From assembly GCF_002210295.1 (NCBI RefSeq), contig NZ_MWQH01000007.1, positions 62,001-126,000 of the forward strand: a stretch of DNA of 64,000 nucleotides, given 5' to 3'. This document shows, piece by piece, positions 19,655-48,952 of the stretch. Origin of the DNA: Fibrobacter sp. UWB5 (GTDB lineage Bacteria; Fibrobacterota; Fibrobacteria; Fibrobacterales; Fibrobacteraceae). The position numbers and the translations under genes were made by a program. Position 1 is the first letter of the stretch. Every line of letters starts with the position of its first letter. The notes below the pieces were generated by a model, which searched no databases, was not told the DNA's origin, and was given only the letters and a program-made list of their open reading frames with translations.

Positions 19655-20428
19655 ATGGATAAAGTAAAGAATATTGCGAATAAATTGCTCGCGTGGGCCA
19701 AGACAGCGCCGATCGTAAAGGCTGTCGGCATCTGGATTGTGCTACTGATCCTGTTGGCTTTCTTTGTGGATAAACTCGTAATGCCGATTTTCTCGGGCCA
19801 TTTTGCCTCTACGGGCGAGGTTCCGAATTTGGAAGGCATGAGCGAAGAAGCCGCCCAGAAGGCCTTGGACGATGCCGGTTTCAAGTACGAATGGCTCGAA
19901 GAAGGCCGTTACAGTGCACAGATTCCTGCCGGCATGGTCCTCGTGCAGATGCCTGCCGCCGGACGTACTGCGAAGCTTGGCCGTACCGTCAAGCTTACCA
20001 AGAGCTTGGGCCTGCGTGAAGTGGAAATTCCTGATCTGCGTGGTAAGAGCCAGAAGCAGGCTGCAATTTCTTTGAGCCGTGCAGGTCTTGTGCAGGGCGC
20101 AATCGTGAAAGGCGCTCACCAGAGCATTCCTCGCGGTGTCGTGATTCGCACGATTCCTGTGGCCGGCGAAAAGGTCCGCATTGGCGACACGGTGAAAGTC
20201 GTGATTTCGGCTGGCGCTACCCAGGGCAAGACTGTGCTGCCTGACTTTAGTGGCGAACAGATCGACAACGTTTACATTAAGGTTGAGACTCTCGGCTTCA
20301 AGGTCGGAAAAGTCAAGCGCAAGAAAGACGAAGAAGGTCGTGCTCCTGGTACGGTGATCGAGACTTCGCCGAAGCATGGCGATTACTTGCCGCCCGATAC
20401 CAAGATTAACTTCGTGATTGCGGATTAA
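19655..20428 (+). CDS. PASTA-domain membrane protein
   Basis: A 257-residue protein with a short cytoplasmic N terminus, one transmembrane helix (about 24-42) and three PASTA repeats outside (about 55-120, 121-187, 188-257; for example EVEIPDLRGKSQKQAAISLSRAGL and VLPDFSGEQIDNVYIKVETLGF, written here only in part). PASTA domains bind peptidoglycan or its precursors. No kinase domain is fused, unlike PknB/Stk proteins, and no penicillin-binding domain. A cell-wall sensing or scaffolding role is inferred. The next gene starts 7 nt after the stop codon. Confidence 0.85.
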   Translation: MDKVKNIANKLLAWAKTAPIVKAVGIWIVLLILLAFFVDKLVMPIFSGHFASTGEVPNLEGMSEEAAQKALDDAGFKYEWLEEGRYSAQIPAGMVLVQMPAAGRTAKLGRTVKLTKSLGLREVEIPDLRGKSQKQAAISLSRAGLVQGAIVKGAHQSIPRGVVIRTIPVAGEKVRIGDTVKVVISAGATQGKTVLPDFSGEQIDNVYIKVETLGFKVGKVKRKKDEEGRAPGTVIETSPKHGDYLPPDTKINFVIAD

Positions 20429-20435
20429 AAAGCTC

Positions 20436-22370
20436 ATGAGGGCATTGCTACTTTCACTTTCTCTGATAGCGACTCTCTTTACGATGTCGCTTTCGCTCGG
20501 AGCGTGCGCTTCGTCGAAAAAAGGGAGTGCCCTGACCGCTGCTGATTCTGCAGCTATCGCGGCTGCAGTCAATGCAAAACTCGATTCCATCAAGTTCGCC
20601 GAAGAGCAGGCTTACGCGCCGAACGTAGACGCGGCCCATGAATCGTTTATTCGCGCCCAGGAAATGGAACTCCGCGGCGAAAAGGCCTTGGCGAATGTGT
20701 TCTGGCAGCATGCTGCAGAATCGGACACCAAGAACCGCTTTTTGGCATTCAAGCTTGCTGAAATCATGATGGCCCGCGGCGCCGATTCCGCCGCCTTGGT
20801 ACAGGCCCAGCATGCGCAGACTTTGAAAGGCCGCGCAACGGCTTCGCAGTTGGGAATTCTTGCCCACCTGTACGTGAAAGACGGCCGCGCCGATTCGGCC
20901 CGCAAGTACTTTAATGAGGCTCTAGATTCTTCGCGCTACCAGGACATGACGCTCCTGTATGATTACAGCTTGTTCCTGGAAGCGGTTCAAGACGCCAAGG
21001 AATTGGTTCGCGTTTATGACTTGCTCTTGCCGCAGGTGAATTACATGCCCTCGCTGTTCCAGCGCCAGCTAAAGCTTTTGCTTGACTTGGGCAAGGACTC
21101 CGCCGTCGTGGAACTCTTTGAAAAGGGCCACGAGGCGACCGGCGACAAGAAAATGCTTTTGCAGATGGTGCAAGGGCTTGTGTTCCAGAAGCGCATGAAA
21201 GAAGCGCAGGCGATTGTAGATACGCTGACGGAATCGACCGAAGATGACGAGTCGATGGTCGTGCTCTTGATGAGCTCGCTTGCCGAAAGCAACAAGCGCG
21301 ATTCCGCTTATGCCCTGCTCAAGAAAAAGTATTCGGTGGACATGGTGCGTACTCCGCTCCTTGCGAATTTCTTGGGCCAGTACGAAAACGTGTACGGAGA
21401 CTATGATAGCGCCAAGGTGCATTTGAAGTATGCAGCAGAGAATATTGCGGAACAGCGCATTTATGTGACGGGTGCCTACCACACGCTTTCGGCCATTGCC
21501 TTTAAGGAGAAGAAGCCTAAAGACGCCGTGCGCTATGCCGAAAAGGCGGATTCTGCCGCCATGGGTGGCGACAAGGCCTCGCTTGCGTTGACTTACGGTA
21601 CCGCCGGAATGTACAGCAAGGCTTACAAGATGCTTGACTCGGTGATTGCCGTGTGGGACAAGTGGACCCCGATGGAAGGAATCGCTGACTCTGCCTCGAT
21701 GATGCGCATGAAGATGGACGTCGAACGCAACAGGCGCCAGTTCCGTAACGTGTACGCCCGCCTTTTGAGCGCCGAAGCCCAGGAAATCTGGCAGAAGGAT
21801 ATCGGAGATTCTGCAAGGATCAAAAAATCGATGGCTTTGCGTGAGCGCGCCGATGAATTCTACAAGGATCTTGCCTCGAGGGATTCTTCGGACTTGCAGA
21901 CCCGCGTGCTGCGCGCCATGAACCTGGAACGTATGGAACGCTACGACGAGGCGTTTGCCATATTCGAGTACGTGCTTCGCTTTGAAAAAACTTCGATTGA
22001 CCGCGCCGAAGTCTTGAATTACTACGGCTACACGCTGATTGACTTGAACCGCAGCCCCGAAGAACTGGACAAGGGAATTGCCATGGTGGACAAGGCCCTG
22101 TTGATGGAACAGGGTGGCGAACCTTCTGAAGCATACCTTGATTCGAGAGCCTGGGGATTTTACCGCAAGGGAAAATTCGAAGATGCGCTCACGGTGATGA
22201 AACTCATCAAGAGCCCGCATTTTGATGACGACTATGTTTACTGGGAACACATGGCGGCCATTTACGAAGCGCTTGGCATGAAGACCGAAACCAAGGCCGC
22301 TTACAAGAAATTGAAAAAGTTGCAGCCGCGTCACCCTGCCGTGAAGAAATACTATAGCGGGAAAAAGTAG
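20436..22370 (+). CDS. TPR-repeat lipoprotein
   Basis: A 644-residue lipoprotein starting MRALLLSLSL with lipobox LGAC (Cys24). A TTG start 18 nt upstream would overlap the PASTA gene and is less likely. The mature part is almost wholly helical, Ala-rich, with repeated tetratricopeptide-like pairs (AHLYVKDGRADSARKYFNEAL; LNYYGYTLIDLNR near the C terminus resembles the last TPR of BamD/Bme-type proteins). It probably scaffolds an envelope complex. It is followed 42 nt later by the LolB-like gene, so both may serve outer-membrane biogenesis. Confidence 0.82.
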   Translation: MRALLLSLSLIATLFTMSLSLGACASSKKGSALTAADSAAIAAAVNAKLDSIKFAEEQAYAPNVDAAHESFIRAQEMELRGEKALANVFWQHAAESDTKNRFLAFKLAEIMMARGADSAALVQAQHAQTLKGRATASQLGILAHLYVKDGRADSARKYFNEALDSSRYQDMTLLYDYSLFLEAVQDAKELVRVYDLLLPQVNYMPSLFQRQLKLLLDLGKDSAVVELFEKGHEATGDKKMLLQMVQGLVFQKRMKEAQAIVDTLTESTEDDESMVVLLMSSLAESNKRDSAYALLKKKYSVDMVRTPLLANFLGQYENVYGDYDSAKVHLKYAAENIAEQRIYVTGAYHTLSAIAFKEKKPKDAVRYAEKADSAAMGGDKASLALTYGTAGMYSKAYKMLDSVIAVWDKWTPMEGIADSASMMRMKMDVERNRRQFRNVYARLLSAEAQEIWQKDIGDSARIKKSMALRERADEFYKDLASRDSSDLQTRVLRAMNLERMERYDEAFAIFEYVLRFEKTSIDRAEVLNYYGYTLIDLNRSPEELDKGIAMVDKALLMEQGGEPSEAYLDSRAWGFYRKGKFEDALTVMKLIKSPHFDDDYVYWEHMAAIYEALGMKTETKAAYKKLKKLQPRHPAVKKYYSGKK

Positions 22371-22412: not shown

Positions 22413-23189
22413 ATGCGCTTGTCTTTTTTGAAACTGTTAGGCTTGTTTGCGATGTGCGTTCTTGTCGGATGCGCGGGTAAAAAGCCCGTGGTGGAGCCTG
22501 CCGCTATGGCCGATAGCAATGCGACTGTCGAGGCTCCGCGTGATAGCTTGCGCGCCAAGTTCTTGCTCACGATTGTTCAGCAAGATACGGCGACAGGAAA
22601 TGCCACGACGCAGGAACTGGATGCCGTGATATTCTCGGTGCCGGGTAAGCGTTACCGTATGGAACTCACGGGCCCGCTGGGAATCGGGGTGGCCTCGCTC
22701 CTGTGGCAAGAAGAAGGCTGGCAGATGACTTTCCCGACGGAAAAGCTTTACATGAAGGGTGTGGGCTACATGGTCGGACTCTTGAACAACGATGCACTCC
22801 CGATGGTGCATATTCACCAGGTGGCCGACATTTTTGACGGGCGCCTGTTGCCCGAAGGCTACGAAGAAGTCGCCCCGCCCGAAGATTCGACACGAGTGGA
22901 AGGCGTAATCTATGCCCGCGAAAAGATGGGTAGGGCCTTCCGTTTTGCAAAAGAGGGCGAACATGTCGCCTGGATTTCGCGCATGGGTCGCGGCGGCAAG
23001 ACCGAAACGATCCATTTTAATGATTTCAAGGAATTCGAGGGTGTAGAAACGCCGTCAAATATTATATTTGAATTAGACGGCGTGAAATTCCTTGAAATAA
23101 AAATCAAGAAGATTGCTCGCAACAAATCGTTCAGTTCAGGAACCTGGCGCTTGAATATCCCCAAGAGTTTCAAGCGGGTCGGGGACTAA
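22413..23189 (+). CDS. LolB/DUF4292-like outer-membrane lipoprotein
   Basis: A 258-residue lipoprotein: lipobox LVGC (Cys20), then an open beta-barrel pattern (DAVIFSVPGKRYRMELTGPLGIGVASLLWQ in pieces; GWQMTFPTEKLYMKG) as in LolB and in DUF4292 proteins that sit next to TPR proteins in many genomes. LolB receives lipoproteins and inserts them in the outer membrane. With so many lipoproteins in the window that role is attractive, but similarity was judged from pattern only. Confidence 0.65.
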   Translation: MRLSFLKLLGLFAMCVLVGCAGKKPVVEPAAMADSNATVEAPRDSLRAKFLLTIVQQDTATGNATTQELDAVIFSVPGKRYRMELTGPLGIGVASLLWQEEGWQMTFPTEKLYMKGVGYMVGLLNNDALPMVHIHQVADIFDGRLLPEGYEEVAPPEDSTRVEGVIYAREKMGRAFRFAKEGEHVAWISRMGRGGKTETIHFNDFKEFEGVETPSNIIFELDGVKFLEIKIKKIARNKSFSSGTWRLNIPKSFKRVGD

Positions 23190-23205: not shown

Positions 23206-23214
23206 GGGGGGGGG
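23206..23214 (+). promoter_or_regulatory. Nine-G tract acting as ribosome-binding site
   Basis: A run of 9 G directly before TGATG (ATG 23217; GTG 23214 is a possible alternative start). Slippage here would change ribosome-binding strength or start choice. Confidence 0.5.
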
Positions 23215-23216
23215 TG

Positions 23217-24560
23217 ATGAACAGAATATTTTTATTAAGCGCGTTGACCGCCTTGTTTGTGGCGTGCTCTGAAGATTCTGTCTCGGGCAATGACGATAGC
23301 TCTGGCGAAAAGCTCGAAAGCTCCAGCAGCGTAGAGGAATCGTCGAGTTCGCTCGTTAAGTCAAGCTCTTCTGCAAAGAAGGCTCAGTCCAGTTCCTCGG
23401 AAAAGTCCTCTAAATCGAGTTCTTCAGAAAAATTGAAGAGTTCCAGTTCCTCAAAAACAAATTCCAGCTCTTCCGGAAAAACAACCGCTACGAGCTCTTC
23501 TCAAAATGTTCAGTCCAGCTCTTCTGCAGGATTGCTGAGTTCCAGTTCGGTACCTCAGTCCAGTTCGTCCGTGTTTGTGTGCAGCCAAAAATGGCCCTGC
23601 AGTATTTTGACTGAAGAATGCGACGCCTCTAAGATTGGTAATACGACGTTTTATCCGGATGGAAATAAAAAATTTTATTATGTGTGTGATTCGACGGGTT
23701 GGGTTGAAGCCACTTATGTAGAATATGACGTTTCCGGAAGGAAGTGCAAGGCTGATGGAGACACGCTTTGGGGCCATGTGGACAACTATCTCCATACGGA
23801 TTCGTTAAATCCGTATAGGGATTTGTATGTTTGCAGAAATGGGGAACTCTACAAAGATAATAGCAAGAGGTATTTTTCCAAGGAATGCAATGCCGCCAGA
23901 GAAAATGAGGAGCTGAAGAAAAAATACGTCACTTATGTTTGTAAGGGCGGCTACTGGAGTCGTAAAAGTCAACATACCGGTACAATGACCGATAGCCGTG
24001 ACGGACGTGAATACAGAACTGTCGGTATCGGCGACCATTTATGGATGCAAGAAGATTTGCAATATAAAGAGAATACTCTTTATTCGTGGTATACGGCGAC
24101 GGGTAATGGCAGTAATAATGGCGAAATAAGCGCCATGATTCGGGGCGTGTGTCCGGAAGGATGGCATTTGCCTACCTACTGGGATAGACAAGAACTCTCT
24201 GCATATGGCGGGTATGATGAATGCCTTGTCGGAAAAACGGGTTGGTCTGCTGATTCGATACGTTATTTTAAAGGCACGGATTGCTTGAATATGGAATTTT
24301 TGCCTAGAGACATCAGCAAACTCAAAAGTAAAGATGAAGGCCATGTGACGGGGATGTGGTATGCTGAGGCCAGTTCCAGTTATGCGTATGCCTTGATTAT
24401 TGAAAATGCAATTTATAGCGATGGAGCATCGGTGTCGTTTAGCACATACGCCTCTCGCAGCAAGTCGGATAGGCTGGTTGTTCGGTGTGTTATGGAAGAA
24501 CCCGGCGATCGAAGCTACAAATCTACGTCTGAAGCCCCGTACTACGAGAAATCGCGATAG
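23217..24560 (+). CDS. Fibrobacter major-paralog lipoprotein (poly-Ser linker)
   Basis: A 447-residue lipoprotein: lipobox FVAC (Cys17), a serine-rich linker of about 80 residues (SSSS runs with Lys and Glu), a Cys-containing middle part (about 120-250) and the C-terminal domain found in many copies only in Fibrobacter (about 255-440: DGREYRTVGIG, LWMQEDL, RGVCPEGWHLPT, VRCV). The domain resembles FISUMP/fibrobacter-slime surface proteins; its molecular role is not known. The long Ser linker suits a glycosylated stalk on the outer membrane. A close paralog follows on the same strand 53 nt later. Confidence 0.88.
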   Translation: MNRIFLLSALTALFVACSEDSVSGNDDSSGEKLESSSSVEESSSSLVKSSSSAKKAQSSSSEKSSKSSSSEKLKSSSSSKTNSSSSGKTTATSSSQNVQSSSSAGLLSSSSVPQSSSSVFVCSQKWPCSILTEECDASKIGNTTFYPDGNKKFYYVCDSTGWVEATYVEYDVSGRKCKADGDTLWGHVDNYLHTDSLNPYRDLYVCRNGELYKDNSKRYFSKECNAARENEELKKKYVTYVCKGGYWSRKSQHTGTMTDSRDGREYRTVGIGDHLWMQEDLQYKENTLYSWYTATGNGSNNGEISAMIRGVCPEGWHLPTYWDRQELSAYGGYDECLVGKTGWSADSIRYFKGTDCLNMEFLPRDISKLKSKDEGHVTGMWYAEASSSYAYALIIENAIYSDGASVSFSTYASRSKSDRLVVRCVMEEPGDRSYKSTSEAPYYEKSR

Positions 24561-24613: not shown

Positions 24614-26023
24614 ATGAAAAAAATCTTGTGGCTTTTTGCCTTGATGGCGCTGTTGGCTGCGTGCTCGGCAAGTGACTCGACATCGGGAAACGACGATCAG
24701 TCTGTCGCGGAAGAATCTTCCTCGAGCGTATCAAAAAATGATTCGGATGATGACGATATAAGCAGCGAGTCTTCGAAAGACAAGTCTTCGAGTTCTAGCA
24801 AAAAGGCGAAAAGCTCCAGCAGTGCAAAGGAATCTAAATCCAGCTCTTCTTCTGTTGCGGCCAAGGAGTCGTCTTCATCGAAGGGAGTGTCCTCTAGTTC
24901 AGAAGACCTGTCCAGTTCCAGCGAGGAAGCGCCGTCGTCTTCGTCAATAGCTTCTAGCTCGTCACGTTTTAATTGCCAGAGGGATTATTATTGCGCTTCG
25001 ATTGCTGAAAAATGCGATGAAGATATGCTGGATTCCTTTAAGATTGTGACTAAGTCCGAAACTAGGTATTATCATTGCGATACCAATGGATGGCAGTATC
25101 TTACTCATGCGGAATATGATACCTTCGGGAAAAAATGTGAGGCCGATGGCGATACGCTTTGGAGCAACCATGTTTTTAAGCATGAAGATGATTCGTTGAA
25201 TACGGGCAGAACCCTTTACATTTGTAGGGAAGGCAAGCCTGAACAAGTTATTAATTACTTGAAACATATTTATTTCGAGTGTAACGAAAAGAACCAAAAC
25301 AGAGTAGTTCAGAAAAAGTATTCCTCGTTTATTTGCCAAGGCAATGCTTGGAGCCTGCTTGACCAGGAAACGGGAACGATGGTGGATCCGCGCGATGGAA
25401 AGGAATACCGTACGGTGGGCATCGGGAATCACTTGTGGATGCAAGAGGAACTGCGGTATAATCAGAATCCGAGTACTAATGTGACTTATACCTGGAGCAC
25501 GGCGATGGGCGGCATTCCGGCTGCTGTGAAAGAGGGGGCAATCCTGAATACCTATGTTCAGGGGGTATGCCCGGATGGCTGGCGCGTAGCGTCTCACACT
25601 GATTTGGTTGAACTTTCCAGTTACTTTAAAGCGATGAGCGCATGGGTGTCTAATTTTGAGCAGCAGTGCTATATTGGGAAGGAAAATTGGTTCCGTTCTG
25701 GATCGCAATATGACCATTATGAAGGGACGGATTGTATGAACACGATGTTTTTCCCTGCAGATATAAGTGTCATCGGCAAAAAGTTGAAGGAGTCTGATAA
25801 AGGGCACTTGACGGGAATGTGGGTTTCTTGGGGGCGAGAGTATGAGGGTGAAGCATTATTGATTAGTAATGCGCGGTTTACGGGCGGAACGACGGTCCCT
25901 TTTAAGGAATACGGCAATTACAGCATGTCGTCTGCATTTACGGTCCGCTGCGTCAAAAACGAAGACGGGGAATACGCCTATAAAACCGCTTTGCAGGCGC
26001 CGACGTATACCGTATCCAGGTAG
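24614..26023 (+). CDS. Fibrobacter major-paralog lipoprotein, second copy
   Basis: A 469-residue paralog of the previous gene with the same plan: lipobox LAAC (Cys17), Ser/Lys linker (about 30-118), a middle region with conserved Cys (NCQRDYYCASIAEKCDED in part; CDTNGWQYLTHAEYDTFGKKCEADGDTLW matches the first copy in pattern), and the major-paralog domain (DGKEYRTVGIG, LWMQEEL, GVCPDGWRV, VRCVKNEDGEYAYK). It has its own leader with GAGAGGGGAG ribosome-binding site and a TATTTTATAAATTG promoter-like stretch. The two genes differ too much to be a recent duplication. Confidence 0.88.
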   Translation: MKKILWLFALMALLAACSASDSTSGNDDQSVAEESSSSVSKNDSDDDDISSESSKDKSSSSSKKAKSSSSAKESKSSSSSVAAKESSSSKGVSSSSEDLSSSSEEAPSSSSIASSSSRFNCQRDYYCASIAEKCDEDMLDSFKIVTKSETRYYHCDTNGWQYLTHAEYDTFGKKCEADGDTLWSNHVFKHEDDSLNTGRTLYICREGKPEQVINYLKHIYFECNEKNQNRVVQKKYSSFICQGNAWSLLDQETGTMVDPRDGKEYRTVGIGNHLWMQEELRYNQNPSTNVTYTWSTAMGGIPAAVKEGAILNTYVQGVCPDGWRVASHTDLVELSSYFKAMSAWVSNFEQQCYIGKENWFRSGSQYDHYEGTDCMNTMFFPADISVIGKKLKESDKGHLTGMWVSWGREYEGEALLISNARFTGGTTVPFKEYGNYSMSSAFTVRCVKNEDGEYAYKTALQAPTYTVSR

Positions 26024-26045: not shown

Positions 26046-29000
26046 ATGAAGTTGAATGCTAAGATTTTTGCATTGGTTTTTGGGCTATTCTCTTTAGCGA
26101 CGACGTTTGCGGCAGATACGCTGCAGGTGTTTGCCATTCGTGTGGAATTTGCCGAAGAAAAGACAGATAACAGCCTGACGACAGGAACGGGGCTTTTTGA
26201 TTCGGACAAGGCGAAGAAAGATGCCTATAGCCTGGACCCGCAGGGGGTTCGAAACAGCGCTCCTTACTGGAGAAAGCATTTTGAATTTGCCAACGCCTAC
26301 TTTAACAAGGCGAGTAACGGCAATGTGGTGATCGATGCGCATATTTATCCGAAGGAATCGAGCGCCTACAAGCTGAAAAAGCAGATTATCGATTATAACC
26401 GCACGAGTAAGATGAAAGGCGAAAAGACCGCGGAATTCGACGATGCCCGCAGCCGCGACTACTTGCAGTTTATTTATGACGCCGTAATGGCAGCGCACGA
26501 ATCGGGCGATTCTCCGTTCAAGGAACCGCTTTCGAAAAACCCGAATACCAAGCGTGCCTACATGATTATCCATGCGGGCGCAAGCCGCCTGGTCGATGGC
26601 GGTAGCATGGGAACGCGCGGCGCCGATACGCCGGGCGACTTCATGGATGTGTACATTGACAAGTCCGCCTGGCAGTACTTGCCGGATTCGATCAAGAATG
26701 CGGCATTCCATAAGGAAGGCAAGAAGGCGAATGGCAAGGATTCGCTGGTGGCCGAGGGTCTGATTTTGAAGGGCGCTGCCGTCGATACGCTGAAGTCAAT
26801 CATGGTCACGAGCGAAACCGCGTCGCAAGACGGCCTGAACTGGGGCGTGAACGGAATCATCGTGAACCAGATCGCGCGCGAACTGGGGCTCCCGAATACC
26901 TACGATGTGGTGAAGGGCATTAGCCGCTTGGGTTATTACGATGTGATGGACTTTGCGGGCTACAACGCGGGCAATGGATTCTTGCCTTCGCTGCCGGCGG
27001 CATGGGAACGCGCCTACATGGGCTGGACTCCGGTAAAAGAAGTGCGCCCGGTGGCGGGTAAGCCTGTGACAGTCGAAATTTCGGCGGCTGGAACGGGAAG
27101 CGGAACTGAAATCGTGAAAGTCCCGCTAAGCGCAAGCGAATACTTGCTGATTGAAAACCGTCAGCGCAGCTGGAATAAAGAAGGCGAAGTCAGCGTGTCG
27201 TTGAGTGGTGCGGGCGAAAGTTCCGATACGACAATCAAGACCGTGCCTGTAGACAGCTTACATTTGGTTTTTGAAGATAGCGTGGATTGTGCGAAAAAGT
27301 GCAAGGCCAACAAGAAAAAGGCGAAGGGCGTTATCGTCGACATTAGCAGCTACGATGCGGGCCTCCCGGCGAGCGGCATTGTGGTGTGGCGCGTGAATGA
27401 CTGGTACTTGCGCGAAACCTTGGAATATGGCATCGCGAACTTCTGGGGTGGCGACACCTTGCGCGATCACCAGTTCGGTATCGCGATGGTGGAAGCTGAC
27501 GGCATTTTGAGCATTGGCAAGACGTTCAAGAATGCCCTTGGCGAAGATACTTATGACTACGGCTCGGGTACGGACTTGTTGCCGCACTTGCGCAAGCCGG
27601 GCAAGGATTCCAAGCAAAAGTTCGATACGGTCAAGACGATTGGTTCTACCGGTTATGCAAACACCATGACAACCCAGGGCGGCTATACCGGAATCAAGAT
27701 TGCGGTGAATGTGCCGAAGGGTGCCCGTGTTGAAAAGACCTCTAATTCGTTCATGGGCGATAGCGTGGTGAACTTTGGCGCGCAAAAGATTAGCGTGACC
27801 ATTAGCATTGACGACGGAAGCATCGATGGTGCCGAATTCCCGCGTAACATTGGCCTTGCCTCTGCCGTGCGTGGCGCCGTGTTTGTAGACGATCCTGAAA
27901 AAGATGGCGAAAAGCTCTTGGTCGTAGGCGCCATGGATGGAACGCTCCAGGTATTCAATGCGATGGGCGACACCTTGTTCCCGGCGGATACGGTTATCAA
28001 GCAGAAGACTTTGACCCGTAACAGCGCCGAACGCGAGGTGCCTCTGTACCGTGTGGGCGCAAGCTACGGTCCGTTGGTAGGCATGGCAAGCGACGGCAAG
28101 GATGTTTACAGCTTGCATACCAAGAAACTCGTGAAGACGTCTTTTGCGGGCGGATTCCCGGTGCAGCAGGAAATTGACATCGATTCCGCGACGGCGGGGC
28201 CTCTGGTTTATGATGGAAAAATTATGGTTGCAGATAAAACGGAAGGAAGGAACTTTGTGTGGACCTTTAGCGGGGCGTCGTTTGACGGGAAGTCCGCTCC
28301 TATACGTGAAATTCCTGCGCCCGTTGTCGATATGGTAAAGTGCTCAAGAACGGATGATGCTTTCGCCCTTGCTGTTGTGACGGCCGAAAATTTTGTTTAT
28401 AAAAAATACGGGAAGAAACTGGATGGTGTGTCCGGTGAAAGGTGGAAAATTGCATGCACTGATTTGGACCGCGATGGATCGGACGATGTAATCGTGGTGG
28501 GCAGTCGCGGTACGGTGGCTGCATACGTCGAGGGCGAAATGGAACTGAAAGCGCTCTGGACCAAGAGCTACAAGCGCGGCGCCGCCGGTACGAGCGGCTT
28601 GAAGGATGAAACCTCGGGCATTGCTATCGGTGACATCAACGGTGATGGCTACCCCGAAATCGTGTTCCTGGGCGATAATCTGGTTTATGCGCTGGACCGT
28701 TCGGGACTTCCGATTGCAGGGTTCCCGGTGAAGATTAGCCGCGGTGCGCCTGTTTATGGATTCTTTAGCGACCCGATTCTGGTGGACGTCAATGGCGACG
28801 ATATGCCTGAAATCCTGGTGCCGAGCAGCGATGGTCTGGTGTATGCGTTTACAGGCAAGGGCAAGCAGGTGACGGATGGCTTCCCGCTGGCGGCTGGCAG
28901 CTACGAAGACATGGATTCGACAAGCGTGATTCAGCCGATGAGCATCTTTGTGGCGAATGCCGTGTCTGACAAGAAATCGAAGGGACCGGAACTTTATGCA

Positions 29001-29444
29001 TTGCATCGCGACGGTGTGACCGCTTTCCGCCTGCGCAAGGCCTCTAGCGATGCCGCAGAATCGGATGCCGCATGGACGCTCCCCGCTGGCGGTAACGAAC
29101 GTACGGGTTACTTTGATGCCTCCAAGCTTGCTGACGTAAAGAAGGTTTCTTCGAAGGATGAAATTTCGGAATTCTTCATGTTTCCGAACCCGGTTCGTGG
29201 CGGCAAGGCGAAGGCCCGCTTTGAAGTGGGTGCGGATGCAAAGAATGCGACCATTGAACTCTACGATATTACGGGTCTTTGCGTATTCAAGGCCAAGATG
29301 AGCGATGTGAAGCAAGGTCGCAACCAGTTTGAAAACCTCGATTTGAAGGACTTGGGTTCCGATGTCTATACCGCTCGTCTCAAGGTAAAATTTGAAAGCG
29401 GCAAGACCAAGCAGAAACTCTACCGCGTAGGAGTGGTGAAGTAA
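26046..29444 (+). CDS. Secreted M6-peptidase-like protein without zinc site, with FG-GAP repeats and sorting module
   Basis: A 1,132-residue exported protein. ATG 26046 is preferred to ATG 26040, which abuts the -10 box. Signal peptide ends near TTFA-ADT. Residues about 25-330 match the immune-inhibitor-A (M6) peptidase layout, but the zinc motif HExxH reads NQIAR (274-278) just before the conserved ELGLPNTYD and the later YYDVMD. So it should be inactive as a metalloprotease. The second half has FG-GAP/integrin-alpha-like calcium loops (GDINGDGYPEIV, DVNGDDMPEIL) of a beta-propeller, and a C-terminal sorting module (FPNPVRGG, IELYDITG). The gene overlaps the next by 1 nt. Confidence 0.78.
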   Translation: MKLNAKIFALVFGLFSLATTFAADTLQVFAIRVEFAEEKTDNSLTTGTGLFDSDKAKKDAYSLDPQGVRNSAPYWRKHFEFANAYFNKASNGNVVIDAHIYPKESSAYKLKKQIIDYNRTSKMKGEKTAEFDDARSRDYLQFIYDAVMAAHESGDSPFKEPLSKNPNTKRAYMIIHAGASRLVDGGSMGTRGADTPGDFMDVYIDKSAWQYLPDSIKNAAFHKEGKKANGKDSLVAEGLILKGAAVDTLKSIMVTSETASQDGLNWGVNGIIVNQIARELGLPNTYDVVKGISRLGYYDVMDFAGYNAGNGFLPSLPAAWERAYMGWTPVKEVRPVAGKPVTVEISAAGTGSGTEIVKVPLSASEYLLIENRQRSWNKEGEVSVSLSGAGESSDTTIKTVPVDSLHLVFEDSVDCAKKCKANKKKAKGVIVDISSYDAGLPASGIVVWRVNDWYLRETLEYGIANFWGGDTLRDHQFGIAMVEADGILSIGKTFKNALGEDTYDYGSGTDLLPHLRKPGKDSKQKFDTVKTIGSTGYANTMTTQGGYTGIKIAVNVPKGARVEKTSNSFMGDSVVNFGAQKISVTISIDDGSIDGAEFPRNIGLASAVRGAVFVDDPEKDGEKLLVVGAMDGTLQVFNAMGDTLFPADTVIKQKTLTRNSAEREVPLYRVGASYGPLVGMASDGKDVYSLHTKKLVKTSFAGGFPVQQEIDIDSATAGPLVYDGKIMVADKTEGRNFVWTFSGASFDGKSAPIREIPAPVVDMVKCSRTDDAFALAVVTAENFVYKKYGKKLDGVSGERWKIACTDLDRDGSDDVIVVGSRGTVAAYVEGEMELKALWTKSYKRGAAGTSGLKDETSGIAIGDINGDGYPEIVFLGDNLVYALDRSGLPIAGFPVKISRGAPVYGFFSDPILVDVNGDDMPEILVPSSDGLVYAFTGKGKQVTDGFPLAAGSYEDMDSTSVIQPMSIFVANAVSDKKSKGPELYALHRDGVTAFRLRKASSDAAESDAAWTLPAGGNERTGYFDASKLADVKKVSSKDEISEFFMFPNPVRGGKAKARFEVGADAKNATIELYDITGLCVFKAKMSDVKQGRNQFENLDLKDLGSDVYTARLKVKFESGKTKQKLYRVGVVK

Positions 29445-30334
29445 TGTCTAGAATGGGGCTCCTGTTGGCCGGTATGGCTGTGTTTTCCCTAGTCGCCTGT
29501 ACGGCGAATGGGGATTCCGCCGATGCATCGCCCACGTACCATCGTGGCGGAAATGCGAGTGCAGACAAGAGTTCCGACAGCAAGGCGACTTCTAGTTCTT
29601 CGACGGATTCGGATTCTTCGGATTATTCGATTCAAGATTTGGTTGAAATGGTGAGCGTTCCCGCCGTTGCGTATTCTCGCGGGACGGTCGAATACCGGGT
29701 GGATGCATTTGCAATCGGTAAAACCGAGGTGACTCAAGGCCTGTATCGCAAAGTCATGGGTGCCATTTCTAAAGATGACGACTTGGGCGACGATTTTCCG
29801 GTTTTCAATGTGAGCTGGTACGATGCAGCTCTCTTTTGCAATGCGCTGTCTAAAAAGGCGGGGTTGGATACGGCTTACGTTTACGAGTCGGTCAATGATG
29901 GTGGTGAATTGATTAATTTGTCTATAAACTACGCTGCGACGACTGTACGACTCCCGACTGAAATGGAATGGGAAATTGCAACTCGCGCGGGTACTTCGAC
30001 CACCTACTACTGGGATACCGATGTGGCCTCGAAATATGCGTATTACGCACAAGATAAGGGACCTGTGGCGGTCGCCGGCTTTACTCCGAATGCGCTCGGC
30101 CTTTACGATATGGCGGGCAATGTCGCCGAATGGGTGAACGATTGGTACAGCGCGTATCCGACGGTTTCGCAAGAGAACTATACAGGCCCTGTTGAGGGTA
30201 AGTACAAGGGAATTCGTGGCGGCGGGTGGTCCGATAAGGCGCCTGCGCTTGCTTCTGCCGAACGCGACAAGAAAGACCCCAAGTACCATAGTCAGATGGT
30301 CGGTTTTAGGGTTGTCTATTCCAAGGGATTTTAG
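29444..30334 (+). CDS. FGE/SUMF1-domain lipoprotein
   Basis: A 296-residue lipoprotein: lipobox LVAC (Cys19), Ser/Asp-rich linker, then a formylglycine-generating-enzyme-like C-type-lectin fold (about 70-295: IGKTEVTQGLY, NVSWYDAALFCNAL, RLPTEMEWEIATRAG, GLYDMAGNVAEWVNDW, RGGGW, VGFRVV). The two catalytic cysteines of true FGE near the C terminus are absent (GGGWSDKAPALASAERD), so it is not a sulfatase-activating enzyme but a binding or structural member. It starts in the TAATG overlap with the M6-like gene, which implies coupled translation and a possible joint function at the surface. Confidence 0.88.
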   Translation: MSRMGLLLAGMAVFSLVACTANGDSADASPTYHRGGNASADKSSDSKATSSSSTDSDSSDYSIQDLVEMVSVPAVAYSRGTVEYRVDAFAIGKTEVTQGLYRKVMGAISKDDDLGDDFPVFNVSWYDAALFCNALSKKAGLDTAYVYESVNDGGELINLSINYAATTVRLPTEMEWEIATRAGTSTTYYWDTDVASKYAYYAQDKGPVAVAGFTPNALGLYDMAGNVAEWVNDWYSAYPTVSQENYTGPVEGKYKGIRGGGWSDKAPALASAERDKKDPKYHSQMVGFRVVYSKGF

Positions 30335-45910: not shown

Positions 45911-47632
45911 ATGCTTATCAAGAAGACTTTCTCCGGGCAGCGGTTTCGCGCAATGCTCCTGACGGCCTCGATTTCGGTGTGTGCCGAAATCGCGAACGTT
46001 TTTATTGATAAAATTGTAGCCGCCCAGCTTCTTGGCGAAAAGGCGCTGGCCTCCATTTCGTTTTTCTCGCCCCTGTTCTCGTTCATCTTTTTCCTGAACG
46101 CGCTTGTCGCCGTGGGTAGCCTCGCCTGCTATTCTATAGAGCTTGGCCGCATGGATCGTGACCGCGCAAACAGGTTCTTTGGACAGAGCATTCTGCTGTC
46201 GTTTGTGGTCGGGATCTTGATGGTGGTCCTCTTTACCTTCGGAAAGGGATTCATGTTCCACTTTATGCACGTGGATCCGGAACTGTTGCAGTATGTCGAC
46301 GAATTCTATGTCTGGTTCCTGGGAATCGCGTTTTTCATGCCACTCTGCAATGTCTTGCAAGAGATGATTTTTGCCGATGGCGATACCCGGATTTGCAATG
46401 CGTCGTACGCCACGCTCCTTATAGGAAACATTGTGCTTTCCTGCTTGCTCTGCACGCGCATGGGCATGTCGGGAATTGCGCTTGGCACCCTGCTTTCGAT
46501 TGTGTTGAGTATCGCGGTACTCTGCCTGCACTTCTTCAGGAAGAACAACAGCCTTCGCTTTGTATGGCATTTCAAGATTGCCGACGTGGGGCGTACGTTC
46601 CGTTTTAGCATGGCGGAGGCCTGCGAATACCTTTATTTCTCTTTGCTGACGGCCTTGTTGAACTTCTACTTTGTCGAACACTTCGCCGTTGAAAAGTTGA
46701 CGGTGCTTTCCATTGTGTACGAAATCGTGGAGGTGAGCGTCATATTCAACGGGATTTGGCTTGCGGCTGAACCGCTCATCAATATTTACCGCGGCGAAAG
46801 GAACGGCAAGGGTATCTTGCAGACCATGCGGTTTGTCAACTGGGCGCTTGTCAAGGAGGGCGTGTTCTTTACCGCGTTCCTGGTGATTTTTGCGCCCGTC
46901 ATGACGCATCTGTTCGGCATTCATTCCGAATCGCTTGCCGACGAAACCGCGTTTGCCATTCGTGCTTGCGCGGTGGGGCTTTTCCCGCTCGCCCTCGTCA
47001 AGACTTACGCCAGTTACCATGTGCACGAACTGCCGCTGCTTTCGTTCGTCTTTATTTCTTTGGTGATGTTCATTTGCCCCTTCGCGGGTGTTCTCGGCAT
47101 ACATGCCTTCGTGGGCGAACAGGCCATGTGGAGCGCCTTCGGTGTCGCGCCCTATGTGGCGCTTGGCGCGAGTGTCGCCATCCATTTGCTGATTCATGGC
47201 AAGAGGCATTTCCCGCTTGAACTCGAGGAATTCTCGATCGAAAATTACTGGTTCATGCATGACATGGAACTTACGCCCAAGAACCTGATTCTTTACCGAA
47301 ACAGTATCAGCAAGCTCTTGACTCACCGCGGCGTGAGCGGGGACGTTCGAATCAAGGCCATGCTGATTCTAGAAGAATTGGGAATGGTGGTTTACGAACG
47401 GAACAAGGGCAAGAAGGTCTTTGTCGAAATCGACGTGAACCTGAAACCTGATAGCCTGACGATGGTCATTAAAGACGACGGAGTCCTGATGGACTTGACC
47501 GACTTTGAACAGCGCGTGACCGATTTGCGCATGTACCTTGTCAATATGTTTATGACGGTGCAAGAAGATAAATGCTATCTGCTGACTTCTAACTATAACC
47601 GTCACGTGTTCCGTTTTGACCGGAACGCATGA
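45911..47632 (+). CDS. MATE-type transporter with C-terminal ATPase-like domain
   Basis: A 573-residue protein. Residues 1-445 are twelve predicted transmembrane helices in the MATE/polysaccharide-exporter pattern (start of helix 1 MLLTASISVCAEIANVFIDKIVAAQLLG in part; ALASISFFSPLF). The last 120 residues are soluble and look like an anti-sigma-type GHKL ATPase: LILEELGMVVYERNKGK (E488, E489, N498) and VIKDDGVLMDLTDFEQ, ending NYNRHVFRFDRNA. The Asn of the usual N box is not in its normal place, so ATP binding is uncertain. MATE pumps are ion-driven and lack such domains; the fusion suggests gating by nucleotide or a partner protein. Its end lies in an 18-bp tandem repeat. Confidence 0.8.
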   Translation: MLIKKTFSGQRFRAMLLTASISVCAEIANVFIDKIVAAQLLGEKALASISFFSPLFSFIFFLNALVAVGSLACYSIELGRMDRDRANRFFGQSILLSFVVGILMVVLFTFGKGFMFHFMHVDPELLQYVDEFYVWFLGIAFFMPLCNVLQEMIFADGDTRICNASYATLLIGNIVLSCLLCTRMGMSGIALGTLLSIVLSIAVLCLHFFRKNNSLRFVWHFKIADVGRTFRFSMAEACEYLYFSLLTALLNFYFVEHFAVEKLTVLSIVYEIVEVSVIFNGIWLAAEPLINIYRGERNGKGILQTMRFVNWALVKEGVFFTAFLVIFAPVMTHLFGIHSESLADETAFAIRACAVGLFPLALVKTYASYHVHELPLLSFVFISLVMFICPFAGVLGIHAFVGEQAMWSAFGVAPYVALGASVAIHLLIHGKRHFPLELEEFSIENYWFMHDMELTPKNLILYRNSISKLLTHRGVSGDVRIKAMLILEELGMVVYERNKGKKVFVEIDVNLKPDSLTMVIKDDGVLMDLTDFEQRVTDLRMYLVNMFMTVQEDKCYLLTSNYNRHVFRFDRNA

Positions 47633-47655
47633 CTAGTCCGGAACGCATGACTAGT
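47620..47655 (+). repeat. 18-bp tandem duplication at the converging gene ends
   Basis: CCGGAACGCATGACTAGT occurs twice head to tail (47620-47637, 47638-47655). It contains the stop codon of the MATE gene (47630-47632), and the second copy holds the stop of the minus-strand TolC-like gene (47651-47653). Confidence 0.9.
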
Positions 47656-48952
47656 CCAGCTTGCCCTGATAAAGTTCCAGAAGCTTGCGTGAAAGCAGGC
47701 TCGTGTACTTGGCGTTGGTGAGCGTGATCTGGGCTTTTTCCAGATTGTTCTTCTGGGTCAAGAAATCCGTGTAGGTGAGGGCGCCTGCGTTGCGTTGTTC
47801 TTCGGCAACGACGAGGGCTTCGGATTCGGCTTGCACCTGGAGGATGGCGGCCTTCCATTGCATGTCGGCGCTCATGGCGTTCAGGTAGAGCTTTTCGAGA
47901 TTGTTCTCGAGAGTCTTCATGTCTTCCTTGAGGCTGACCTGCGATTCGGTCTCGCTGACTTGCGCCTGCAGGACTTTGCTGGCGGTGGCGCCGCCATCGA
48001 TAATCGGGATGTTGATGCCGAGCGTAATGGAATTTTGCCAGCCGTACTTGAGCTGGTCCTTGTAGGCCTTGGACTGCCAAGCCTGCAGGCCCGTGCTGGA
48101 ATTGGCGCCGAGGGTCACGGTAATGGAGCTGCCCTTGCCGGCGACTTCCGTGTTCTTCTGGGCGGCGCGCACGGACACGCTGTCGGACTTGAGTCCGGGG
48201 TGAGCGTTTTGGGCGTCGGCCTTCAATTGTTCGTAAGTCGGAAGCGCTTCGAGGGAATCAGGGCTTTCGATATTGGTTTCAGGGGCGCTGATCTGGAATT
48301 CGACATTGTCGTCCAGTTCCAGGAGCTGGCGCAGAGTCGTCTTGGCGGTGCTCACGGAGAGCTGGGCGGTAAGCTGCGAGGTCTGCTTTTGCAGCACGTT
48401 GGACTGCGATTGGGTCAAATCCTTCTTGGTGATAGAACCCGCTTCGTAAAGCTTGCTGTAGTGCTCGAATTCGGCCTGGGCAAGTTCGACCGAGGCGTCT
48501 GCCGTGCGCAGGTTTTCGCTTGCGGCCAAGAGGCTCATGTAGGCGTTCAGCACGCTTTCCTGGACGCTGCGTTCGGTCTGCTGGGTGGCAAGGGCCGTCG
48601 CTTCCTTGGTAAGTGTCTTGGATTCTACGTTCAGGCTCGTGGCGCCCCCGTCCCACAGGGTGTAGGAACCGGAAATACCGAGGTTCAGACGGTAATGGTC
48701 TTCGTTATAGACGAAGGGGTGGTCGTAGAGCGTGTTCTGGATGCTGGCGCTTACAGTGGGGTAGTTGCCCGTTTTCGCCTGTTTGATGGAAATGTCGGCG
48801 GACTGCTCGCGGAGCTTTGCGGATTCAAGCTTCAGGCTAGACTTTTTGGCCTGCTTGAGGCAGTCTTCTAAGGTCCAGGTGCCTTCGGCAAAAGCCGTCG
48901 TCAGGGCGGCCATGGCGAAGAATGCATTGATGAGGACTTTGGTGTTAATCAT
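47651..48952 (-). CDS. TolC-like outer-membrane efflux protein
   Basis: A 433-residue outer-membrane factor: signal peptide (TTAFA-EGTW), WTLEDCLKQAKKSSL, the usual start of mature TolC-family proteins, and two internal repeats of long coiled-coil helices (about 35-215 and 230-430) with DGGATSLNVESKT and DGGATASKVLQAQ at the strand-helix turns. It forms the exit duct for type I secretion or RND/ABC efflux. No membrane-fusion or pump gene adjoins it; the converging MATE gene is not a usual partner. Confidence 0.9.
   Translation of the reverse strand: MINTKVLINAFFAMAALTTAFAEGTWTLEDCLKQAKKSSLKLESAKLREQSADISIKQAKTGNYPTVSASIQNTLYDHPFVYNEDHYRLNLGISGSYTLWDGGATSLNVESKTLTKEATALATQQTERSVQESVLNAYMSLLAASENLRTADASVELAQAEFEHYSKLYEAGSITKKDLTQSQSNVLQKQTSQLTAQLSVSTAKTTLRQLLELDDNVEFQISAPETNIESPDSLEALPTYEQLKADAQNAHPGLKSDSVSVRAAQKNTEVAGKGSSITVTLGANSSTGLQAWQSKAYKDQLKYGWQNSITLGINIPIIDGGATASKVLQAQVSETESQVSLKEDMKTLENNLEKLYLNAMSADMQWKAAILQVQAESEALVVAEEQRNAGALTYTDFLTQKNNLEKAQITLTNAKYTSLLSRKLLELYQGKLD

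Follow-up and report, generated by a model that had tools for sequence, protein, structure and literature searches.

In a 64,000-nucleotide stretch of the genome of Fibrobacter sp. UWB5, a gut bacterium (contig NZ_MWQH01000007.1, positions 62,001 to 126,000; hereafter the window), the gene that we term M6i (26046–29444; this gene, the features within it, the gene directly downstream and the three conserved upstream genes given below lie on the forward strand) specifies an exported-type protein of the M6 peptidase kind that lacks the zinc site of these enzymes. We propose, with a probability of about 0.58, that M6i is a pseudo-peptidase working with PorV and PorU in the type IX secretion system (T9SS), as a non-catalytic part of it. 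The evidence that carries this proposal is the fold of the protein, its missing zinc site, the constancy of that dead site among relatives, a neighbourhood with porV and porU genes in relatives, and co-occurrence with the translocon SprA.

The open reading frame of M6i is intact (26040/26046–29444) and specifies 1132 residues plus a stop codon. The protein starts with a fold of the M6 (immune inhibitor A) kind, continues with a beta-propeller and ends in a domain resembling a sorting domain. A signal-peptide-like N terminus (residues 1–22; 26046–26111), read in the sequence and modelled with low confidence as a helix at residues 5–16, is followed by an M6-like catalytic-type domain (approximately residues 22–400; 26109–27245), a beta-rich region past the M6 core (residues 401–588; 27246–27809), the propeller (residues 589–998; 27810–29039) and a C-terminal domain of seven strands that resembles T9SS sorting domains of type A (residues 1040–1132; 29163–29441). 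AlphaFold2, supplied with 56 sequences, modelled the whole protein with a mean predicted local distance difference test score (pLDDT) of 86.7 and a predicted template modelling score of 0.85, and residues 22–588 alone with a pLDDT of 86.2. Using VIA-align, the latter model was matched to InhA2 of Bacillus (4yu5 and 4yu6; Z 22.1 and 21.3), the top alignment covering 383 residues at a root-mean-square deviation of 3.3 and 19 % identity and taking in model range 1–567, which includes the beta-rich region; the next fold scored Z 8.6. Foldseek returned a listing filled by propellers for the whole model and no match at E up to 0.001 for the M6 part, with InhA2 not among the 50 rows listed, and the fold claim therefore rests on VIA-align together with NCBIfam matches. 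Similarly, a PDB sequence search with the whole protein gave four weak matches at E up to 10, of which the top two fell within the propeller, and a profile of the M6 part matched no PDB sequence at E up to 1, such that the link of M6i to M6 proteins in the PDB is one of fold. In NCBIfam the top match was NF052323 (292.3 bits, cut-off 600; E 7.9e-87; best stretch 21–511), and the M6 domain model TIGR03296 matched residues 280–378 at 39.6 bits (cut-off 110.8; E 5.6e-10). A Pfam scan found propeller repeats (FG-GAP_3 at residues 806–873 and FG-GAP at 858–873) and a sub-threshold Por_Secre_tail, and no M6 family. Taken from the models, the N-terminal part is predicted to be an M6/InhA fold. Solved propellers matched residues 589–998 (highest Z 29.8, over 301 residues). 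One of them was Tako8, a designer protein with eight blades (Z 28.0), a match that does not settle the blade number of M6i. Three DxDxDG-like, calcium-type loops were seen by eye in the propeller: DLDRDGSDD (residues 806–814; 28461–28487), DINGDGYPE (863–871; 28632–28658) and DVNGDDMPE (914–922; 28785–28811).

When M6i was aligned with 21 canonical M6 sequences, chosen with a preference for frames holding HE..H, their HExxH fell on N274-Q-I-A-R278, within a would-be zinc helix (residues 268–280; 26847–26885) that is also a helix in the model. If the M6 ligand set is HExxHxxGxxD, as we presume, the third ligand position of M6i is N284; the protein thus retains neither of the two histidines, nor the glutamate, nor the third ligand within the dead site NQIARELGLPN (residues 274–284; 26865–26897). 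The segments ELGLPNTYD and YYDVMD (the latter at residues 297–302; 26934–26951) are present. An earlier note on this DNA, made from the sequence alone, had described an M6-like protein reading NQIAR in place of HExxH, with both of these segments kept and a propeller with calcium-type loops behind them, and had proposed structure prediction against M6 peptidases as a check; the alignment, the InhA2 match and the propeller matches agree with that description throughout. The window's genome also encodes two M6 paralogs with HESGH and HEFSH (L219 and L240), so the organism has ordinary-looking M6 proteins as well. Among 80 Fibrobacterota loci (the best 80 of 387), none has HExxH at the site and 73 read NQ-x-(A/G)-R (NQIAR 23, NQIGR 19, NQLAR 14, NQVAR 7, NQMAR 4, NQFAR 3 and NQVGR 3), the remaining seven being single variants that include two HQxAR and one NQIAH. 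With this motif so widespread while the window's genome holds HExxH paralogs, the dead site is not a matter of chance. Moreover, residues 255–330 form the best-conserved stretch of the protein (0.78, vs a protein mean of 0.50 and 0.42 in the propeller; 56 rows), with values of 0.88 for N274, 1.0 for Q275 and 0.93 for R278, and H176, E257, Q275 and D302 are invariant in the alignment that we designate A3. A merely decayed site would not be expected to stay so constant, which supports the view that the dead site has been kept by selection; a zinc-site-less M6 fold retained in this way fits the binding-type role suggested in the earlier note.

We next consider how far this protein extends. M6i matches were found in 58 of 60 near genomes, and genomes of the genus never held more than one long match. 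Across 391 genomes, NF052323 matched (E up to 1e-15) in 158 of 167 from Fibrobacterota and in 49 of 224 others; none of the nine Fibrobacterota genomes without a match is ≥ 90 % complete, and in one of these nine (G050) incomplete matches lie where a contig ends. Outside the phylum, 29 of the 49 genomes with a match supplied 30 loci (25 family codes), of which 28 encode the C-terminal domain, one of the two misses being cut by a contig end. The earlier note had named HExxH orthologs as evidence that would speak against it: such orthologs are absent from the 80 Fibrobacterota loci, but among the 30 other-phylum homologs nine carry HExxH, three HQxxH and 18 other letters, and the wider family is therefore not uniformly dead. 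In a tree of 78 rows from which the motif columns were excluded, the Fibrobacterota proteins and other-phylum homologs stood apart from canonical M6 sequences (support 100/98), the Fibrobacterota proteins formed one clade of 27 rows, all dead (100/100), and a second clade without HExxH held 18 other-phylum rows, two of them HQxxH (99/96). Scoring HExxH against the rest gave three changes on the tree, two of which are forced by well-supported branches. The root inside the clade was not inferred, and the direction is most simply read as loss of HExxH because this motif is found throughout the outgroup, partly by our choice of rows. With HExxH in none of the 80 Fibrobacterota loci, NQ-x-(A/G)-R in 73 of them and a family match in 158 of 167 genomes, the loss of the zinc site is old in this phylum. 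Four deep-type loci labelled Fibrobacteria or Fibrobacteraceae by NCBI (L107, L124, L126 and L136) fell in the deep clade, and five further ones so labelled (L117, L118, L121, L122 and L123) were left off the tree.

Outside the phylum, the immediate neighbour of the M6i homolog is a PorV-family gene in 29 of the 30 loci (27 upstream and two downstream; 25 family codes), of which 28 were confirmed at the level of genes and the 29th is an overlapping frame beside a stretch reading N. As a control, under the same clipping no PorV gene was found within 1.5 kb of any of the 21 canonical HExxH M6 genes, vs 29 of the 30 homologs. A PorU-type gene lies ≤ 2.8 kb upstream in 13 of the 30 loci, as counted with a profile built from five of those same 13; these five were confirmed with NCBIfam (611–775 bits, cut-off 420), as were three of the PorV neighbours (240–309 bits, cut-off 90). 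For the PorV profile we used 10 PorV genes of Fibrobacterota, including four that adjoin M6i. Within Fibrobacterota, a gene of PorV-propeller type stands just upstream of M6i in 26 of the 80 loci, from Raymondbacteria, Chitinivibrionia, Chitinispirillia and some labelled Fibrobacteria. The wider predicted partner of M6i is accordingly PorV, with PorU, which the earlier note had not noticed.

In four loci a PorV/PorQ-family barrel and a two-component-regulator-type (PorZ-like) propeller share one frame (L043:9810-12008, L044:3475-6201, L045:4065-6449 and L245:7943-10168), and across 10 Fibrobacterota genomes the top PorV-family match always fell in a frame of 746–886 residues. Family scans of the fusion covered L043, L044, L045 and L209, and the other deep-clade loci were assigned by profile. 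The fusion looks like PorQ and PorZ joined in a single chain. Ahead of the PorV-propeller gene in L043–L047 and in the window's genome is a gene for a small membrane protein of ~190–210 residues with SGxYS-like and PPxxLGCxC-like motifs (L044:2894-3523, L245:7435-7998); the L044 member, which was scanned, had no Pfam match. A TolB-like propeller protein of ~1000–1200 residues is encoded after the M6i homolog in L044 (9883-13170), L043 (2782-6402) and L189 (521-3535), with a Peptidase_MA-like part in two of the three, and similar-sized, similarly placed genes occur in many other loci; in four stretches of the window's genome, the rest of which was unsearched, no such gene was found.

Outside Fibrobacterota, SprA was matched in 46 of 49 genomes positive for an M6i homolog and in 26 of 175 negative ones (p = 2e-25, a value that overstates the evidence because the genomes are related), and PorV-family, C25 and SprA matches exceeded their cut-offs in all 10 Fibrobacterota genomes searched, that of the window included. 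GldM, taken as a marker of the motor, was recognised in none of 17 genomes, the window's among them, in a search that was uninformative, and in one (G369) of the 72 SprA-positive genomes outside Fibrobacterota (within G167–G388). This suggests a divergent or different motor in most of those 72, divergence being indistinguishable from absence in such a result.

From these observations we infer export, docking on PorV and any role in cargo handling, as follows. M6i would carry a Sec signal and a C-terminal domain that serves twice, first for its export by the T9SS and then for docking on a PorV-family barrel at the outer membrane. The inactivated M6 cleft and the propeller would then form a binding platform that helps PorU and PorV to receive, position or attach cargo; a peptidase fold could hold a polypeptide without cutting it. 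The ancestor was presumably an M6 peptidase whose gene adjoined porV and, in many cases, porU; catalysis would have been lost more than once, with the protein kept and, in Fibrobacterota, its cleft too. A bolder version, which we offer tentatively and consider rather more likely to fail than to hold, is that the T9SS outside Bacteroidota has an undescribed surface component, an M6-type protein with the gene order porU-porV-M6, which started as a cargo-maturation peptidase and on two or three occasions at least became a receptor that binds cargo without catalysis, the Fibrobacterota cleft being frozen as NQxxR and essential in the attachment complex, with a dead lipoprotein of the formylglycine-generating enzyme (FGE) fold as second partner near Fibrobacter.

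This lipoprotein (29444–30334; 296 residues; PF03781, 136.7 bits; lipobox seen by eye) is encoded directly downstream of M6i, its start overlapping the M6i stop by one base (TAATG). It has no cysteine in the motif after RGGxW; the catalytic cysteine pair of FGE enzymes is, we presume, placed after RGGxx. Of 36 FGE-like members with the motif, 29 lack any cysteine over the 17 residues that follow it and seven contain at least one. The earlier note had rightly seen an overlapping FGE-like lipoprotein without catalytic cysteine, and its idea that the two products may form a pair is supported by gene order in part of the phylum. In 53 Fibrobacterota loci with no PorV upstream and > 1 kb of downstream sequence, an FGE-like gene follows M6i within 100 bases in 39 and at 1 kb in one more, but is missing in 13; none was found in the 26 PorV-upstream Fibrobacterota loci or the 30 loci of other phyla. 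Such pairs are seen only close to the genus Fibrobacter.

There, the working unit might be M6i plus the lipoprotein, which would anchor or dock M6i at the outer membrane and so replace the PorV that neighbours it in other classes, a possibility that is compatible with M6i as a T9SS part, in which the lipoprotein may be a late second partner. The one-base overlap and the 39 close pairs favour it, as does the fact that none of the 80 loci has both PorV upstream and an FGE-like gene downstream, and FGE folds are described as docking hubs in PorK (PMC12421860). Against this stand the 13 loci without the gene, a lipoprotein that may face the periplasm while M6i is expected outside, and a GldK score for the neighbour of 85.2 bits, below the cut-off of 350; we thus hold such a unit to be possible but doubtful. 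The neighbour was also considered as the missing GldK and rejected as such, as the GldK search matched in eight of eight genomes and exceeded the cut-off in none. In the window's genome that search gave nine matches, the best on contig C5 (86.6 bits, vs 80.2 for the window gene), in a 3.6-kb locus where no T9SS gene was seen by eye.

A number of observations weigh against M6i acting with PorV and PorU. The other 54 Fibrobacterota loci, those of Fibrobacter and the deep-clade locus L171 (1.1 kb of sequence) included, have no PorV upstream of M6i; the genome of the window has its PorV-propeller gene on contig C4 and M6i on C7, the former still adjoining the small membrane-protein gene (125.8 bits) that precedes it in five deep-clade loci. 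Three genomes with an M6i homolog have no SprA match (G198, G268 and G342), and the 26 SprA-positive genomes noted above have no M6i homolog. For the sorting module described in the earlier note there are seven strands in the model and a Por_Secre_tail match at residues 1045–1123, the latter below both cut-offs (Pfam 23.7/27 bits; NCBIfam 17.5/23). PorZ coexists with M6i homologs in other phyla, being over its cut-off in two of 17 genomes and giving long sub-cut-off matches in five more, and the homologs are therefore not simply its stand-in there. Nine Fibrobacterota genomes gave only short, mostly C-terminal PorZ matches, and in this phylum M6i may yet replace PorZ; at E up to 1, the PorZ model NF052228 did not match M6i. 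On contig C7, ~40 kb from M6i (~46037-48175; L248:4038-6176), is a gene for a protein of 712 residues whose C terminus is of PorZ type (103.9 bits, cut-off 260).

Finally, linkage and co-occurrence do not show contact, and a conserved cargo would give part of the same pattern. The main rival is therefore that M6i is an ordinary, if highly conserved, cargo that the T9SS exports without its belonging to the system. It would bind glycan, protein or cell wall at the surface, and its old linkage to PorV would serve only co-expression. M6i carries a sorting-type domain as cargo does, propellers often bind ligands, and in Fibrobacter the gene lies apart from PorV. Nevertheless, PorV in 29 and PorU in 13 of 30 loci, together with presence in 158 of 167 genomes, seem unusual for a cargo, with the reservation that no other cargo was counted as a yardstick, and we regard this explanation as unlikely, if well short of negligible. 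It is improbable that M6i has remained an enzyme by means of a new metal site or some other chemistry within the cleft: the cleft is the most conserved region and contains the invariant H176, E257, Q275 and D302, but all ligand positions are replaced, conserved residues alone show no site, and the letters at the site differ widely in the inactive-type homologs of other phyla, which hardly speaks for a single new chemistry. A sequencing error, pseudogene or chance resemblance can be dismissed, with no in-frame stop among the matches listed, the same motif in unrelated assemblies and a fold match to InhA2.

Upstream of M6i, most loci near Fibrobacter have the same series of genes, which in the window encode a PASTA-domain protein (19655–20428) and a TPR lipoprotein (20418–22370), both from neighbour tables and family scans, and a lipoprotein (22413–23189) found in the neighbour tables, for which the scans named no family. 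Between the last of these and M6i lie two FISUMP lipoprotein genes (23214-24560 and 24614-26023); relatives have none (L135), one (L127) or another set there, making this an apparent variable insertion spot.

Among known systems, one that is close to M6i as a proposed T9SS part is the attachment complex of Porphyromonas; surface attachment of T9SS cargo has been described there and in Flavobacterium. In the account of PMC5562754, PorV shuttles cargo to a PorU:PorV:PorQ:PorZ complex, in which PorV and PorQ keep the surface proteins PorU and PorZ in place, and PorU removes the sorting domain and attaches lipopolysaccharide; PorZ, as described in PMC8545088, has two propellers and a sorting-type domain that PorU does not cleave, and delivers lipopolysaccharide to PorU. 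M6i resembles PorZ in general build, being of exported type with a propeller and a sorting-type domain, and has a peptidase fold in addition; unlike PorU it is not a C25 sortase, and unlike PorZ it is not a two-propeller protein. For PorK/GldK, PMC12421860 describes an FGE fold without catalytic cysteines that is a structural T9SS part and docking hub; on that description, cysteine-less FGE folds are known structural parts of the T9SS, which the earlier note also missed. The FGE-like neighbour is like PorK in having an FGE-type domain and no catalytic cysteines and in being a lipoprotein, and differs in its sub-cut-off GldK score and its length of 296 residues; ring partners, at which no search was aimed, were not seen next to it. 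With InhA2, M6i shares the fold of the M6 core and the following beta region; unlike InhA2, it has no HExxH and possesses a C-terminal propeller and sorting-type domain.

The nearest named kind is NF052323, a "T9SS-dependent M6-like inactivated metalloprotease" which, like M6i, has an M6-like N-terminal part and a T9SS-type C terminus; M6i fits the name, as its M6-like part is without a zinc site and its organism has a T9SS. Six of the 391 genomes pass the cut-off of 600, none of them from Fibrobacterota among the matches listed, and the best Fibrobacterota score listed is 331.7. The kind is therefore already named in NCBIfam, with the Fibrobacterota proteins well below its cut-off as a branch of their own (100/100) with an NQxxR-type site. 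A literature search on M6 or pseudo-peptidases and the T9SS, covering few subscription journals, found no paper title on an M6-like T9SS part, and as far as that search reaches, the porV/porU linkage, the repeated loss with intermediate states and the phylum-wide NQxxR-type site are new. The presence of M6i in nearly all Fibrobacterota genomes, along with the PorV/PorU gene order elsewhere, points to an overlooked part of the T9SS in bacteria for whose cellulases T9SS export has been proposed (PMC6851124). Moreover, a single gene neighbourhood offers zinc sites that are intact, half lost (HQxxH) or wholly lost, a series in which the conversion of an enzyme into a binding part could be studied directly.

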